Source: Sphingomonas limnosediminicola
GTDB lineage: Bacteria; Pseudomonadota; Alphaproteobacteria; Sphingomonadales; Sphingomonadaceae
Length of the DNA: 64,000 nucleotides
Assembly: GCF_039537965.1 (NCBI RefSeq)
Contig: NZ_BAABBM010000001.1
Coordinates: forward strand, 1,897,501 to 1,961,500
Reading direction: 5' to 3'
A program made the position numbers and the translations under genes. The notes below the pieces were generated by a model, which worked only from the letters and a program-made list of their open reading frames with translations, was not told the origin of the DNA and did not search any database. Numbering within the stretch: position 1 is the first letter of the stretch; every line of letters starts with the position of its first letter. Of this stretch, positions 21,407 to 27,426 are shown one piece after another.

Positions 21407-22363
21407 ATGCCCTCAGGTCTGATTGCGCTCCTCGACGATGTCGCCACCATCGCCAAGCTCGCCGCTTCCTCGCTCGACGACGTGGCGGGCGCGGCCGGCA
21501 AGGCGAGCACCAAGGCGGCCGGCGTCGTCATCGACGATACGGCGGTGACGCCGCGCTACGTGACCGGCCTCGCGCCGGAGCGGGAGTTGCCGATCATCGG
21601 CAAGATCGCTTGGGGTTCTCTCCGCAACAAGATCGCGATCCTGCTGCCGCTGGCGCTGCTGCTGACCGCATTCGCCCCCTTCCTGATCACGCCGCTGCTG
21701 ATGCTCGGCGGCGCCTATCTCGCCTTCGAAGCGACCGAGAAGATCCTCGAGAAATTGCTCCACGAGCATGAACATGAGGAGCAGCTGGTCGACGCGATGG
21801 GGGACCCGGTCGAACTCGAGAAGATGCAGGTGAAGGGCGCCATCCGCACCGACTTCATCCTATCCGCCGAGATCATGGCCATCGCGCTCGCGAGCCTCGA
21901 GCATCTGACGCTCGTCACCACCGCCTTCGCGCTGATCGTCGTGGCATTCGCGATCACCGCCGGTGTCTACGGCGTCGTCGCGTTGATCGTGAAGCTGGAC
22001 GACATCGGACTGCACATGGCGCAGCGCCGCGGACGCGCCATCCGCGCCTTCGGCAACGGGCTTGTGCACGTCGTGCCCAAGCTACTAACCGCGCTGGCGA
22101 CGATCGGCACTGCCGCGATGCTGTGGGTCGGCGGCGGAATCCTCCTCCACGGCCTCGAGGAGCTGCACCTCGCCGGCCCGATCCCGCACCTCATCCACGA
22201 CTTCGCCCATCTTATCAGCGAGCCGCTCGGCGCCTTCGCCGGCCTCGTCGCCTGGCTGGTCAACGCGATCGGCGGCGCGCTCGTCGGCATCGTCGTCGGC
22301 AGCGTGATCGTGCTCGTCGTCCGCCGCCTCACCAAGCACCCGGAAGAACTGATCGTCGATTAA
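21407..22363 (+). CDS. DUF808 family membrane protein (YedI-like)
   Basis: This 318-residue protein begins MPSGLIALLDDVATIAKLAASSLDDVAGAAGKA, the conserved DUF808 N terminus. About six to seven hydrophobic segments follow, with a charged HEHEHEEQLVDAMGDP stretch between helices. It is an inner-membrane protein of unknown function. ATG at 21407 is chosen because it opens the conserved block. The start is divergent from serS with 56 bp between them. The stop overlaps the convergent flavin reductase by 4 bp. Confidence 0.88.
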   Translation: MPSGLIALLDDVATIAKLAASSLDDVAGAAGKASTKAAGVVIDDTAVTPRYVTGLAPERELPIIGKIAWGSLRNKIAILLPLALLLTAFAPFLITPLLMLGGAYLAFEATEKILEKLLHEHEHEEQLVDAMGDPVELEKMQVKGAIRTDFILSAEIMAIALASLEHLTLVTTAFALIVVAFAITAGVYGVVALIVKLDDIGLHMAQRRGRAIRAFGNGLVHVVPKLLTALATIGTAAMLWVGGGILLHGLEELHLAGPIPHLIHDFAHLISEPLGAFAGLVAWLVNAIGGALVGIVVGSVIVLVVRRLTKHPEELIVD

Positions 22364-22884
22364 TCGAAGTGCAGCCGGCGATACTTGCCGCGGAAGAACA
22401 GGAGCGGGTCGAGGCTGGCGTCGAAGCTCGCCTGCACCACTTGCCCCACCAGGATATGATGATCGCCGCCGTCATAGACCGCGTAGCGCTCGCATTCGAA
22501 CACGCAGAGCGAGTCCTTGAGGATCGGCGCGCCACCTTCGCCGCATGACCAGGGCGTTCCCTCGAACCGATCACCGGCGCGCGTCGAGAAGCTGATCGAC
22601 GCCGGCTGCTGCCCCGTCTGGAGCACGTTGATCGCAAAGCACGGCGCGGTCGTCAGCGCGGCCGCGGTCGCCGCTTTCTTGTGAACGCACACTAGCAGCA
22701 GCGGCGGCTCCAGCGACACCGAGGTGAAGCTGTTGACCGTCAGCCCCGAAGGCTCCCCCTCGAGCAGGCAAGTGACCACGGTCACACCCGTCGCAAAGCA
22801 TCCGAGCGCGTCGCGCAGCGTGCGCGGATCATGCCCGCTGCGATACTCGCCCTTGCTTGGTTGTCCGTCCGGCTGATCGGCCAT
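22360..22884 (-). CDS. Flavin reductase family protein
   Basis: This protein of about 174 residues has the flavin-reductase-like fold: LRDALGCFATGVTVVT, LTVNSFTSVSLEPPLLLVCVHK and a C-terminal HHILVGQVVQASFD...LLFFRGKYRRL. Such proteins reduce FMN/FAD with NAD(P)H for two-component monooxygenases. MADQPDG at 22884 is taken as the start; an ATG six codons upstream is possible. It lies 23 bp after phhA on the same strand. It is therefore probably co-transcribed with it and subject to the phhA leader control. Confidence 0.85.
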   Translation of the reverse strand: MADQPDGQPSKGEYRSGHDPRTLRDALGCFATGVTVVTCLLEGEPSGLTVNSFTSVSLEPPLLLVCVHKKAATAAALTTAPCFAINVLQTGQQPASISFSTRAGDRFEGTPWSCGEGGAPILKDSLCVFECERYAVYDGGDHHILVGQVVQASFDASLDPLLFFRGKYRRLHFD

Positions 22885-22907: not shown

Positions 22908-23678
22908 CTAGAGCGCCAGCAGCCTCTCGGGCGTCAGCGCTAGAACATCGGTCACCGTGCGTTCGACCGATTCGGAAACTAGGTAGCGCGGCTGGAAGGC
23001 GTCATGCCGGTAGGCAGTATGAACCGCCCGCTCGACCGAGAAGGGCAGGCGTTCGACCGCGTCGCTTTCCAGGCTGAAGTGCGATTCGCCGAAGCTCGAC
23101 GCGAGGCCAGCGCCGAGGATCTTCAGTTCGCCGTGCTCGCGCGCCAGCCCGAACTCGACGCTGTGCCAGTAGAGGCGCGCGGCCCGAACGCCCTCGCCGG
23201 CCACGATTGCCGCCGAGCCGAGCCGCCCGACATGCTCGGCCATCTCGGCGAAGTCGTGATGCGCCAGCATCGGGATGTGACCAAACAGGTCGTGGAAGCA
23301 GTCTGGCGCTTCGAGATAATCGAGCTGCGCGCGCGTGCGAATGAAATTGCCGACCGGAAATACACGCTCGCTCAGCATCGCGAAGAAGACGTCGTCCGGC
23401 ACCAACCCCGGCACCGCGACCGTGCGCCACCCGGTCCGAGGCCGAAGGATCTCGTTAAGCTCGCCAACCTCCGGAATACCTGGATGCGACAGCCGCAGCA
23501 GGTCGATCCCATGGAGAAAGGCCGACACCACCCGCGTCCCGAGCAGCTCGACTTGCCGCGCAAACAGCAGGTCCCATACCGCATGGTCTTCCTCGGTGAA
23601 GGAATCCCAAGATTGCGATACGACATAGTCCTGCCAGCGCCCGGCCGGCTGGTCCCTGACAATCGTCTCCTGAAGCAT
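22908..23678 (-). CDS. phhA: Phenylalanine 4-monooxygenase
   Basis: This 256-residue single-domain, pterin-dependent hydroxylase converts L-Phe to L-Tyr. The iron ligands are the HDLFGH motif (H129, H134) and E175 in WHSVEFG. It lacks the regulatory ACT domain, as expected for the bacterial form. ATG at 23678 follows AAAGGACCACCAG. phhB, encoding pterin carbinolamine dehydratase, lies 2.2 kb away, and hpd is beyond it, so the region handles Phe/Tyr metabolism. Directly upstream is a candidate transcription attenuator with a Tyr-Tyr leader peptide. Confidence 0.95.
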   Translation of the reverse strand: MLQETIVRDQPAGRWQDYVVSQSWDSFTEEDHAVWDLLFARQVELLGTRVVSAFLHGIDLLRLSHPGIPEVGELNEILRPRTGWRTVAVPGLVPDDVFFAMLSERVFPVGNFIRTRAQLDYLEAPDCFHDLFGHIPMLAHHDFAEMAEHVGRLGSAAIVAGEGVRAARLYWHSVEFGLAREHGELKILGAGLASSFGESHFSLESDAVERLPFSVERAVHTAYRHDAFQPRYLVSESVERTVTDVLALTPERLLAL

Positions 23679-23701
23679 CTGGTGGTCCTTTCATGGGCAT
23701 T

Positions 23702-23733
23702 AAAAAACCCGCCGAGCGGGCCGCTGGCGGGTT
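23702..23733 (-). terminator. Candidate attenuator terminator before phhA
   Basis: On the minus strand, AACCCGCC pairs with GGCGGGTT, extended inward by AGCG/CGCT, and is followed by a run of six T. The T-run ends 23 nt before the phhA ATG, so the hairpin sits between the phhA promoter and its ribosome-binding site. That is the geometry of an attenuator rather than a gene-end terminator. A second hairpin directly 5' of it uses CCAGCCTCC (23742-23734) and GGAGGCTGG (23781-23773). The latter arm lies in the leader reading frame. Confidence 0.75.
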
Positions 23734-23762
23734 GGAGGCTGGTGTCTGTCGCTAAGCGCGCG

Positions 23763-23855
23763 TCAGCTCGTTCCAGCCTCCCGCACGTAATAAGAGCTCG
23801 CCGGCGCGGCCGCAGTGGCGCAAACGGTCAGAGCGAGGTCGGTCGTGCGGTTCAT
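23763..23855 (-). CDS. Candidate Tyr-rich leader peptide of phhA
   Basis: This 30-codon reading frame starts at ATG 23855 and ends with TGA at 23763. Its C-terminal part is SSYYVREAGTS. Tandem Tyr codons 22-23 (TAT TAC, 23792-23787) lie immediately before the RNA arm GGAGGCTGG, which can pair with CCAGCCTCC next to the terminator. No Shine-Dalgarno precedes the ATG, but a promoter-like pair of hexamers is placed so that transcription would begin at this ATG, giving a leaderless mRNA. Tyr is the product of PhhA, so the codon choice fits the gene. Translation is inferred, not shown. Confidence 0.6.
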   Translation of the reverse strand: MNRTTDLALTVCATAAAPASSYYVREAGTS

Positions 23856-23862
23856 CGGCGTG

Positions 23863-23892
23863 GTCTATGACAGATGCCGCCTGAACGCTCAA
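23863..23892 (-). promoter_or_regulatory. Putative phhA leader promoter
   Basis: A -35-like TTGAGC (23892-23887) and a -10-like CATAGA (23869-23864) are separated by 17 bp. A start 7-8 nt beyond the -10 would fall on or next to the A of the leader ATG at 23855. The hexamers match consensus only moderately. Confidence 0.45.
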
Positions 23893-25884: not shown

Positions 25885-26139
25885 CTATCCGTTCGCCAGT
25901 GCCGAGATCGCCTCGGCAAGTCTGATGTCGCGCTCGGTCACGCCGCCAGCATCGTGGCTGGTCAGCCGGAAATCGACCCGGTTCCACACGCTGGTGAATT
26001 CCGGGTGATGGTCGACCTGCTCGGCATGGAGCGCGACTCGGGTCAGGAAGCCGAACGCCTCGCTAAAATCCGCAAAACGGAAGGAGCGAATGAGCGCCTT
26101 GTCGCCTTCTTCGACCGTCCAGCCTTCGGGCGCGTCCAT
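25885..26139 (-). CDS. phhB: 4a-hydroxytetrahydrobiopterin dehydratase
   Basis: This 84-residue pterin-4a-carbinolamine dehydratase has the family core: FRFADFSEAFGFLTRVALHAEQVDHHPEFTSVWNRVDFRLTSHDAGGVTERD. The active-site H-H-P is visible. It recycles the pterin cofactor oxidised by PhhA. The N terminus is shorter than in some homologues but the domain is complete. It is on the same strand as phhA but separated from it by the degraded zone, so it must have its own promoter. Confidence 0.93.
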   Translation of the reverse strand: MDAPEGWTVEEGDKALIRSFRFADFSEAFGFLTRVALHAEQVDHHPEFTSVWNRVDFRLTSHDAGGVTERDIRLAEAISALANG

Positions 26140-26325: not shown

Positions 26326-27426
26326 ATGGCTACGCAGGTCGCCGACAAATCGCCGCTCGGCCTCGAAAACCCGATGGGCACCGACGGCTTCGAATTTGTC
26401 GAATATACCGCGCCCGACATCGAACTGCTGCGCTCGCTGTTCGCGAAGATGGGGTTTCCCGAGATCGCCCGCCACAAGAGCAAGAACGTCACGCTTCACA
26501 AGCAGGGCGACTGCAACTTCATCATCAATGCCGAGCCGGGTTCCTACGCCGAACAATATGCCAAGGATCACGGGCCGAGCGCCTGCGCCATGGCTTTCCG
26601 CGTCACCGATGCAAAGGCCGCCCACGCCCGCGCGCTGAAGCTCGGCGCGACCGACGTGAAGGTGAGCAAGGGCGACGGCGAACTCGACCTGCCGGCCATC
26701 GAAGGCATCGGCGGCTCGCGCTTGTTCTTTATCGACCGCTACGGCCCGGGCTCCGGCATCGCCGGGTCGATCTACGAGGTCGACTTCGACTTCCATCCCG
26801 ACTGGCAGCAGCGAATGGCCGATGCGGATTCAAAGCTCACCTATATCGACCACCTCACGCACAACGTGAACCGCGGCAACATGGCGACCTGGGCCGACTT
26901 CTACGAACGTCTCTTCAACTTCCGCGAGATTCGCTACTTCGACATCGAAGGAAAGCAGACCGGCCTGTTCTCGAAGGCGATGACCTCGCCCTGCGGCAAG
27001 ATCCGCATCCCCCTCAACGAGAGCCAGGACGACAAAAGCCAGATCGAAGAATTCCTGCGCGAATATAAGGGTGAGGGGATCCAGCACATCGCGCTCGGCA
27101 CATCGAACATTTACGACGCGGTCGACATCATCCGCGCACGCGGCATTCCCTTCCAGGACACCCCGGATACCTATTACGAGATGCTCCCCGAGCGCATCAA
27201 AGGCCACGACGAGAGCATCCCCGAGCTGGAGAAGCGCCGCATCCTGATGGACGGCGCGCCGACCGAAGGGCAGGGCCTTCTCCTGCAGATTTTCACCCAG
27301 AACGTGATCGGGCCGATCTTCTTCGAGATCATCCAGCGCAAGGGCAATGAAGGCTTCGGCGAGGGCAACTTCAAGGCGCTGTTTGAGAGCATCGAGCTCG
27401 ATCAGGTCCGCAGGGGTGTCCTCTGA
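26326..27426 (+). CDS. hpd: 4-hydroxyphenylpyruvate dioxygenase
   Basis: This 366-residue Fe(II) enzyme converts 4-hydroxyphenylpyruvate to homogentisate in tyrosine degradation. It has two VOC-fold halves. The iron ligands are the His in YIDHLTHNV, the His in IQHIALGTSN and the Glu in FFEIIQRKG. The C-terminal GNFKALFESIE is characteristic. ATG at 26326 follows AAAGGAGACAATAA. The downstream thiolase starts at its stop codon. Homogentisate dioxygenase itself is not in this window. Confidence 0.96.
   Translation: MATQVADKSPLGLENPMGTDGFEFVEYTAPDIELLRSLFAKMGFPEIARHKSKNVTLHKQGDCNFIINAEPGSYAEQYAKDHGPSACAMAFRVTDAKAAHARALKLGATDVKVSKGDGELDLPAIEGIGGSRLFFIDRYGPGSGIAGSIYEVDFDFHPDWQQRMADADSKLTYIDHLTHNVNRGNMATWADFYERLFNFREIRYFDIEGKQTGLFSKAMTSPCGKIRIPLNESQDDKSQIEEFLREYKGEGIQHIALGTSNIYDAVDIIRARGIPFQDTPDTYYEMLPERIKGHDESIPELEKRRILMDGAPTEGQGLLLQIFTQNVIGPIFFEIIQRKGNEGFGEGNFKALFESIELDQVRRGVL

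Follow-up and report, generated by a model that had tools for sequence, protein, structure and literature searches.

In the trpL leader of E. coli, a short ORF with tandem codons for the end product of the pathway is followed by a terminator before the structural gene, and a helix adjoins the codons; the pheL/pheA and pheST leaders carry Phe codons ahead of genes for Phe biosynthesis or Phe-tRNA synthetase, and T-boxes bind tRNA directly and have no translated leader. The aroR leader peptide of Corynebacterium glutamicum, which contains Phe-Tyr-Phe and precedes an operon with aroF, is described in a review as responding to Phe limitation, Tyr availability being without effect (PMC11802643); also in the synthesis of aromatic amino acids, the uORFC-13-1 motif before aroF is described as a uORF attenuator next to a terminator (PMC8632094). 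For tyrosine, an actinobacterial survey names T-boxes, not attenuators (PMC1262725), and a 2005 paper on TyrA draws on a web database for the putative attenuators that it reports upstream of tyrA (PMC1173090). A Tyr-specific leader on phhA was not found in searches of the open-licence literature of PMC.

Examination of 64,000 nucleotides of the Sphingomonas limnosediminicola genome (the whole stretch analysed, here called the window) points to control of phhA by a ribosome-mediated transcription attenuator responsive to charged tRNA-Tyr, a reading to which we assign a probability of about 0.85. The regulated gene, phhA, encodes a phenylalanine 4-hydroxylase of 256 residues (22908..23678, minus strand; PF00351). 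On the same strand lies a leader peptide ORF of 30 codons plus TGA (MNRTTDLALTVCATAAAPASSYYVREAGTS; ATG 23855 to TGA 23763), inside which the putative regulatory codons, a tandem Tyr pair TAT TAC (23792-23787), are followed by a leader arm GGAGGCTGG (23781-23773; -16 to -8 relative to the leader stop codon), the proposed 5' arm of an antiterminator. Its complement, the partner arm CCAGCCTCC (23742-23734), lies flush against an intrinsic terminator consisting of AACCCGCC..GGCGGGTT and a T run (23733-23702), which was also picked up independently by a terminator scan; the phhA ATG (23678) lies 23 nt beyond it. As in attenuators as a class, an intrinsic terminator separates the leader ORF from the structural gene, and the short ORF appears to carry a run of codons for the regulating amino acid. 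The coordinates given in the original prediction for the promoter-like pair, the leader ORF, the tandem Tyr codons, both arms and the terminator were all verified on the minus strand. Folded as a single sequence, the region does better than its shuffles (z of -2.59), with 3 of 200 shuffles equally good. The stretch TGACGCGCGC (23765-23756, minus strand), which runs from the leader stop codon onward and lies outside both helices, is well conserved at the same place in most other leaders.

Alignment of phhA upstream regions across Sphingomonadales had been proposed as a check, and conserved Tyr codons with covarying arms were indeed found in three genera, but not in the other Sphingomonadales sampled. 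The set from the window's own genus comprised 71 genomes, 65 of them with phhA (69 copies); together with two copies from a second genus (g40), these gave 71 upstream regions. In 68 of them a short ORF with Tyr codons at its end, an arm whose position before the leader stop codon is constant, and a terminator are present. To be accepted by the script, a region needed an ORF with one or more Tyr close to the end and, 14-42 nt past the stop of that ORF, a terminator; the three misses were L063 (the second copy of G013) and L068 and L069 (both copies of G030), so that the leader precedes one or more phhA copies in 64 of the 65 own-genus genomes that have the gene. Typical leaders end in YYYPDEVGIG, YYYPREAGTS, YYYPHEVGTG, YYLDAVETG or YYYYYRRRAVFD. 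Among the 26 genomes of a third genus (g49), 20 leaders were read upstream of phhA, ending in YYYRTARAGPI, YYYYFAARAETD, YYYYGSTRAGPI and similar sequences (one, L205, with no ATG start seen), and another, in G531, was recognised by model score alone; the remaining five genomes yielded no phhA match (G118, G189), no match to the RNA model (G522, G527) or a single RNA-model match without a Tyr ORF (G526). A stricter detector applied uniformly (two or more Tyr codons among the last 14 codons, together with an ATG and a terminator) recognised 64 of the 71 own-genus and g40 regions, none of 46 phhA loci in other Sphingomonadales genera (45 genomes, one gene of G106 being counted twice), one of 27 elsewhere in the class and none of 14 other records. 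The single class-level match (L250, YFLPDYCADHGFIS) has no Tyr run and looks like chance. Reading by eye likewise revealed no leader in 25 loci, nor in 20 further upstream regions, of other Sphingomonadales genera. Conservation across Sphingomonadales at large is not supported, with 0 of 46 sampled loci outside the own genus, g40 and g49.

An RNA model, R1, built from the own-genus and g40 leaders finds the window's leader, at 78.1 bits, as its best match in the window's own genome. Across 396 genomes of the order, its matches above 40 bits are confined to the same three genera. Weaker leaders outside these genera could be missed, because some true leaders score below 40 bits (35.9 bits in G024). 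Outside the three genera, the highest match among those listed (L157, 35.3 bits) was rejected on reading as a Tyr leader, being a terminator without a Tyr ORF; two R1 matches in g49 (L218, L226) also have no Tyr ORF. R1 brought to light leaders of other specificities. Its second-best match in the window's genome (L120, C1:1481497-1481589, outside the window; 24.9 bits) is a Trp leader, MTYLNAIAATSTVHLWWRGSTFAARWRD (..HLWWRG..), with a terminator before a gene that we name trpD-like by eye (PF02885 and PF00591 on the first 148 residues). Ile/Thr leaders (..IITTTTTRSRGGCG, ..MITTIITRVRGGTG) with terminators were found in g49 (L207, L209, L210, L212, L214-L217, L219), preceding a gene that begins like aspartokinase (PF00696 on the piece from L209).

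No amino acid other than Tyr recurs near the end of nearly every leader. At least two Tyr codons occur at -14 to -5 in 84 of the 88 leaders, whereas the next amino acids occur twice or more in 56 (Ala) and 23 (Arg), and Phe and Trp never occur twice there in any of the 88. Tyr accounts for 242 of the 880 codons at -14 to -5, compared with 0.8% for TAT/TAC trinucleotides in the window; because the leaders were partly chosen by requiring at least one Tyr near the end, this count is biased upward and is to be read as specificity, not as an unbiased rate. Exceptions are five of the 88, in which the last 36 nt before the stop contain fewer than two Tyr codons.

Comparison of the arms argues for a conserved helix. 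In an arm swap test (n=68), leader arms paired with their own partners at -12.97 kcal/mol versus -10.63 kcal/mol with swapped partners, none of 5000 permutations being as good; among 55 non-redundant leaders the values were -12.88 versus -10.74 kcal/mol. MAFFT/RNAalifold applied to all 68 leaders recovered the terminator alone because the register of the arms shifts by one to three bases between clades; pairs were therefore counted by anchoring on the stop codon and the terminator core, with alignments A2 and A3 excluded from the counts on account of the same shift and one leader (L060) that gave no helix dropped, leaving 67 of 68. The gap between the end of the leader arm and the stop is 6-10 nt in 61 of 67, and the second arm ends within -3 to +1 nt of the CCCG core of the terminator in 60 of 67. 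With positions anchored on the stop codon, two-sided switches of pair type occur at -16 (G-C 13, C-G 15, U-A 1), -15, -14 (A-U 25, C-G 25, G-C 2), -11 (U-A 39, C-G 12, U-G 13) and -10 (G-C 37, U-A 17). On a PhhA tree of 68 proteins, a quick one with 20 of 65 inner branches starred, the fewest Watson-Crick type changes are 10, 2, 4, 1, 9 and 1 at -16, -15, -14, -12, -11 and -10, or at least 27 switches over the six positions; both pair counts and tree counts favour paired states, the helix register having been pre-chosen for best pairing, and the swap test serves as their control. An alternative helix from the ORF to the 5' side of the terminator, as attenuators possess, is on this comparison kept by compensatory change.

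A ribosome covers approximately 12 nt downstream of the first base of its A-site codon and approximately 15 nt upstream of its P site. When Tyr codons are sought no more than 36 nt from the stop, a limit set by the script, the first of them falls between -36 and -27 in 84 of 88 leaders, with -30 the commonest place (41 leaders); the Tyr codons of the window's leader lie at -27 and -24. By this geometry, a ribosome stalled at the first Tyr codon would leave all or almost all of the arm uncovered (for the leader of the window itself, the ribosome's front edge would touch the arm's first base or two), and one at the stop codon would cover it, so the helix should form when Tyr is short. The stalled state was folded as the RNA free of ribosome up to the end of the terminator 5' arm. 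In these folds, half or more of the terminator 5' arm is hidden by the proposed antiterminator in 35 of 45 leaders from the rest of the own genus and g40 and in 19 of 20 from g49, that is, in 54 of 65 outside the window's clade; within the window's clade, whose helix adjoins the terminator with no gap, this is so in only 1 of 23. The row of L038 in this analysis is spoiled because an inner stem was taken as the terminator. When the full-length stalled RNA is considered, the predicted terminator values average 0.91 in the window's clade, 0.77 in the rest and 0.75 in g49, falling below 0.5 in 0 of 23, 6 of 45 and 5 of 20 leaders, respectively; with the ribosome at the stop, the means are 0.95, 0.95 and 0.97. 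The switch would therefore have to be kinetic, depending on the order of synthesis, since the terminator stays likely at full length. The arm pairing is most likely an antiterminator in these models, and the probable polarity is that starvation turns phhA on, because the arm hides the terminator 5' arm in most leaders outside the window's clade. Within that clade the arm borders on the terminator but does not overlap it, and for that reason we offer the antitermination step there as a hypothesis: a linker-less helix between the stalled ribosome and the terminator might block the terminator at the exit channel. The original prediction, which described arm pairing beside the terminator and saw no convincing antiterminator, was fair in its doubt as regards the window's clade, but elsewhere an antiterminator is likely.

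Upstream of the leader ORF, the -35 hexamer TTGAGC (23892-23887, minus strand) belongs to a longer element, TTGAGCGTTCA (23882..23892, minus strand), and is followed after 17 nt by the -10 hexamer CATAGA (23869-23864, minus strand), 8 nt before the leader ATG. This pair is present as predicted but is too weak for a consensus promoter scan of the window, which found none. A permissive search admitting TTCA-containing -35 forms (TTCA, then a hexamer with A second, 14-18 nt on, and an ATG within 22 nt) found a promoter-like pair in a similar position before 57 of 68 leaders. Among these 57, the distance from TTCA to the hexamer is 16 in 51, the commonest -10 hexamer is GATAAG (11 pairs) and the leader ATG lies 6-10 nt past the -10 hexamer in 56. 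The window and most of its clade have TTGNNCGTTCA as their -35 region, other leaders CTGGCGTTCA, CTTCCGTTCA and similar forms; TTGNNCGTTCA occurs once in the window versus 0.44 times expected. The region is kept beyond the hexamer (..CGTTCA), possibly as a sphingomonad promoter type or an activator site. Transcription usually starts a few bases past the -10 hexamer. Given that spacing and the distance of 6-10 nt between the -10 hexamer and the ATG, the leader mRNA is probably leaderless, with a predicted start at, or a few bases from, the leader ATG.

The enzyme under control is probably a tyrosine biosynthetic one. The closest solved relatives of PhhA are phenylalanine-4-hydroxylases, and it scores 242.5 bits against TIGR01267, below the cut-off of 264.75. 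A flavin reductase-like gene (22360..22884, minus strand; PF01613), confirmed to start 23 bp 3' of phhA as originally predicted, is possibly co-transcribed with it; PF01613 matches occur in 15 of the 34 phhA loci searched, this locus included. phhB, encoding a pterin-4a-carbinolamine dehydratase for recycling of the PhhA cofactor (25885..26139, minus strand; PF01329), lies upstream, outside the leader's unit, and PF01329 was found in 67 of 71 own-genus genomes. Beside phhB, in the same cluster, is a tyrosine breakdown gene, that of 4-hydroxyphenylpyruvate dioxygenase (26326-27426, plus strand; TIGR01263, 407 bits). TyrA (PF02153) was not matched anywhere in the complete genome of the window, with all 14 of 14 control genomes positive; matches over the cut-off occur in 4 of 71 own-genus genomes (controls 14 of 14), neither of the two g40 genomes (13 of 14) and 6 of 26 g49 genomes (14 of 14). 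Of the 87 leader-bearing genomes (64 + 2 + 21), 79 have no TyrA match over the cut-off by this one family model, some of these absences being weak because of sub-cut-off matches (seven own-genus leader genomes and G531) and incomplete genomes (14 of the 64 own-genus leader genomes are <90% complete); the eight with TyrA are G013, G017, G061 and, in g49, G514, G518, G520, G529 and G536. Because no TyrA match was found, PhhA is probably the biosynthetic enzyme for tyrosine, and seemingly the only route to it in this bacterium; judging by Pfam, the solved relatives and the missing TyrA match, the regulated gene would make the sensed amino acid, as expected of an attenuator. That PhhA-type enzymes act as a source of Tyr has experimental backing in Dyella japonica and others (PMC7311316).

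The only own-genus genome with phhA and without the leader, G030, has TyrA. A strict link between the leader and TyrA loss is rejected: in other genera, 14 of 45 genomes with phhA and without the leader also have no TyrA match (12 were picked for that; the genera are g7, g16, g47, g50, g55, g60 and g75), and 8 of 87 leader genomes have TyrA. Loss of TyrA alone therefore does not call forth the leader. The phhA copies of the own genus that are without leader (L063 in G013; L068 and L069 in G030) stand in genomes that also carry TyrA, and in G013 the TyrA match, split in two frames, adjoins such a copy. Four nearly complete genomes (G037 and G040 of the own genus, G118 and G189 of g49) have neither a phhA nor a TyrA match and are perhaps tyrosine auxotrophs, or use another route.

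Comparison between genomes supplies the Tyr-rich ORF, the covarying arms, the terminator and the missing TyrA match; from these we infer the stalling, the polarity, the leaderless start and the action of the abutting helix. Transcription would start at or very near the leader ATG. When Tyr is plentiful, the ribosome would reach the leader stop codon and cover the leader arm (-16 to -8), whereupon the terminator would fold and RNA polymerase would halt before phhA. When Tyr is scarce, the ribosome would stall at the Tyr codons and leave the leader arm free to pair at the foot of, or inside, the terminator 5' arm before the 3' arm is made, and phhA would be transcribed. Since PhhA probably makes Tyr, the loop would be ordinary end-product control.

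The opposite polarity, in which the leader helix aids the terminator by coaxial stacking on its foot and stalling at the Tyr codons lowers phhA, would suit the window's clade: helix and terminator adjoin there with no gap, and the minimum-energy fold of the leader contains the two together. It is nonetheless unlikely, since in 54 of 65 leaders elsewhere the arm, standing equally far from the stop codon, pairs into the 5' arm of the terminator, with which it must compete, and since a shortage of Tyr would shut off a gene that makes it. An unregulated, conserved premature terminator would fit part of the evidence too, the peptide or short RNA acting in trans in the manner of Sinorhizobium rnTrpL/peTrpL and the Tyr codons serving the function of the peptide. 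The probable leaderless short mRNA recalls rnTrpL, the 5' end of which is described in S. meliloti as the ATG of trpL (PMC7298713); but the N-terminal part of the peptide varies by eye while the Tyr run and the RNA arms are kept, and action in trans has no need of covarying arms beside a terminator, which makes this explanation decidedly improbable.

Tyr pathways are under T-boxes in other bacteria (PMC1262725), yet the conserved parts here sit inside an ORF, and the only match of the whole window to Rfam at gathering thresholds is a tRNA at the window start. A T-box or other Rfam RNA was rejected, as the leader has no match at these thresholds, and a tRNA- or metabolite-binding RNA of any kind is very improbable. 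Equally hard to credit is chance, namely a spurious ORF beside the terminator of an upstream transcript: there are many short ORFs around the site, but conservation, covariation and the negative controls speak against it. A ribosome-mediated attenuator sensing charged tRNA-Tyr is the preferred reading. More tentative, and in its entirety rather doubtful, is a wider proposal: that the leaders form a Tyr-specific attenuator family on leaderless mRNA in lineages that use phenylalanine hydroxylase as their Tyr enzyme, and that in the window's clade the abutting helix, alone or with the stalled ribosome, blocks the terminator sterically at the RNA polymerase exit channel and not by base-pair exclusion.

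Such an attenuator would bring tyrosine into the set of amino acids that have a leader-peptide attenuator of their own, and would place one on PhhA, an enzyme often described as catabolic; the sequences themselves offer an argument that a large group of sphingomonads has PhhA as its means of Tyr biosynthesis. The coexistence of abutting and overlapping clades poses the question of whether an antiterminator must share bases with the terminator or whether a flush helix suffices.

Among known systems, the phhA leader is like trp leaders such as E. coli trpL in its tandem end-product codons, its terminator and the helix beside the codons, and unlike them in that Tyr replaces Trp, that the gene is phhA and that the helix of the window's clade borders on the terminator without overlap. 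A trp leader is marked by tandem Trp codons ahead of trp genes; here Trp supplies 7 of the 880 codons at -14 to -5. It differs from pheL/pheA and pheST of E. coli, which use Phe codons and control Phe biosynthesis or Phe-tRNA synthetase, and from Tyr T-boxes, which bind tRNA directly without a translated leader. With the former it would share the sensing of an aromatic amino acid by attenuation (PMC11802643), and with the latter control of tyrosine genes at the RNA level (PMC1262725). Its transcript probably begins at the ATG, as that of S. meliloti trpL/rnTrpL is described to do (PMC7298713). The leader peptide of aroR also has a Tyr codon, but aroR is Phe-responsive, and uORFC-13-1 is Phe-type and precedes another gene (PMC8632094). 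Accordingly, we file the phhA leader as a ribosome-mediated attenuator that is new in its specificity (Tyr) and in its gene (phhA).
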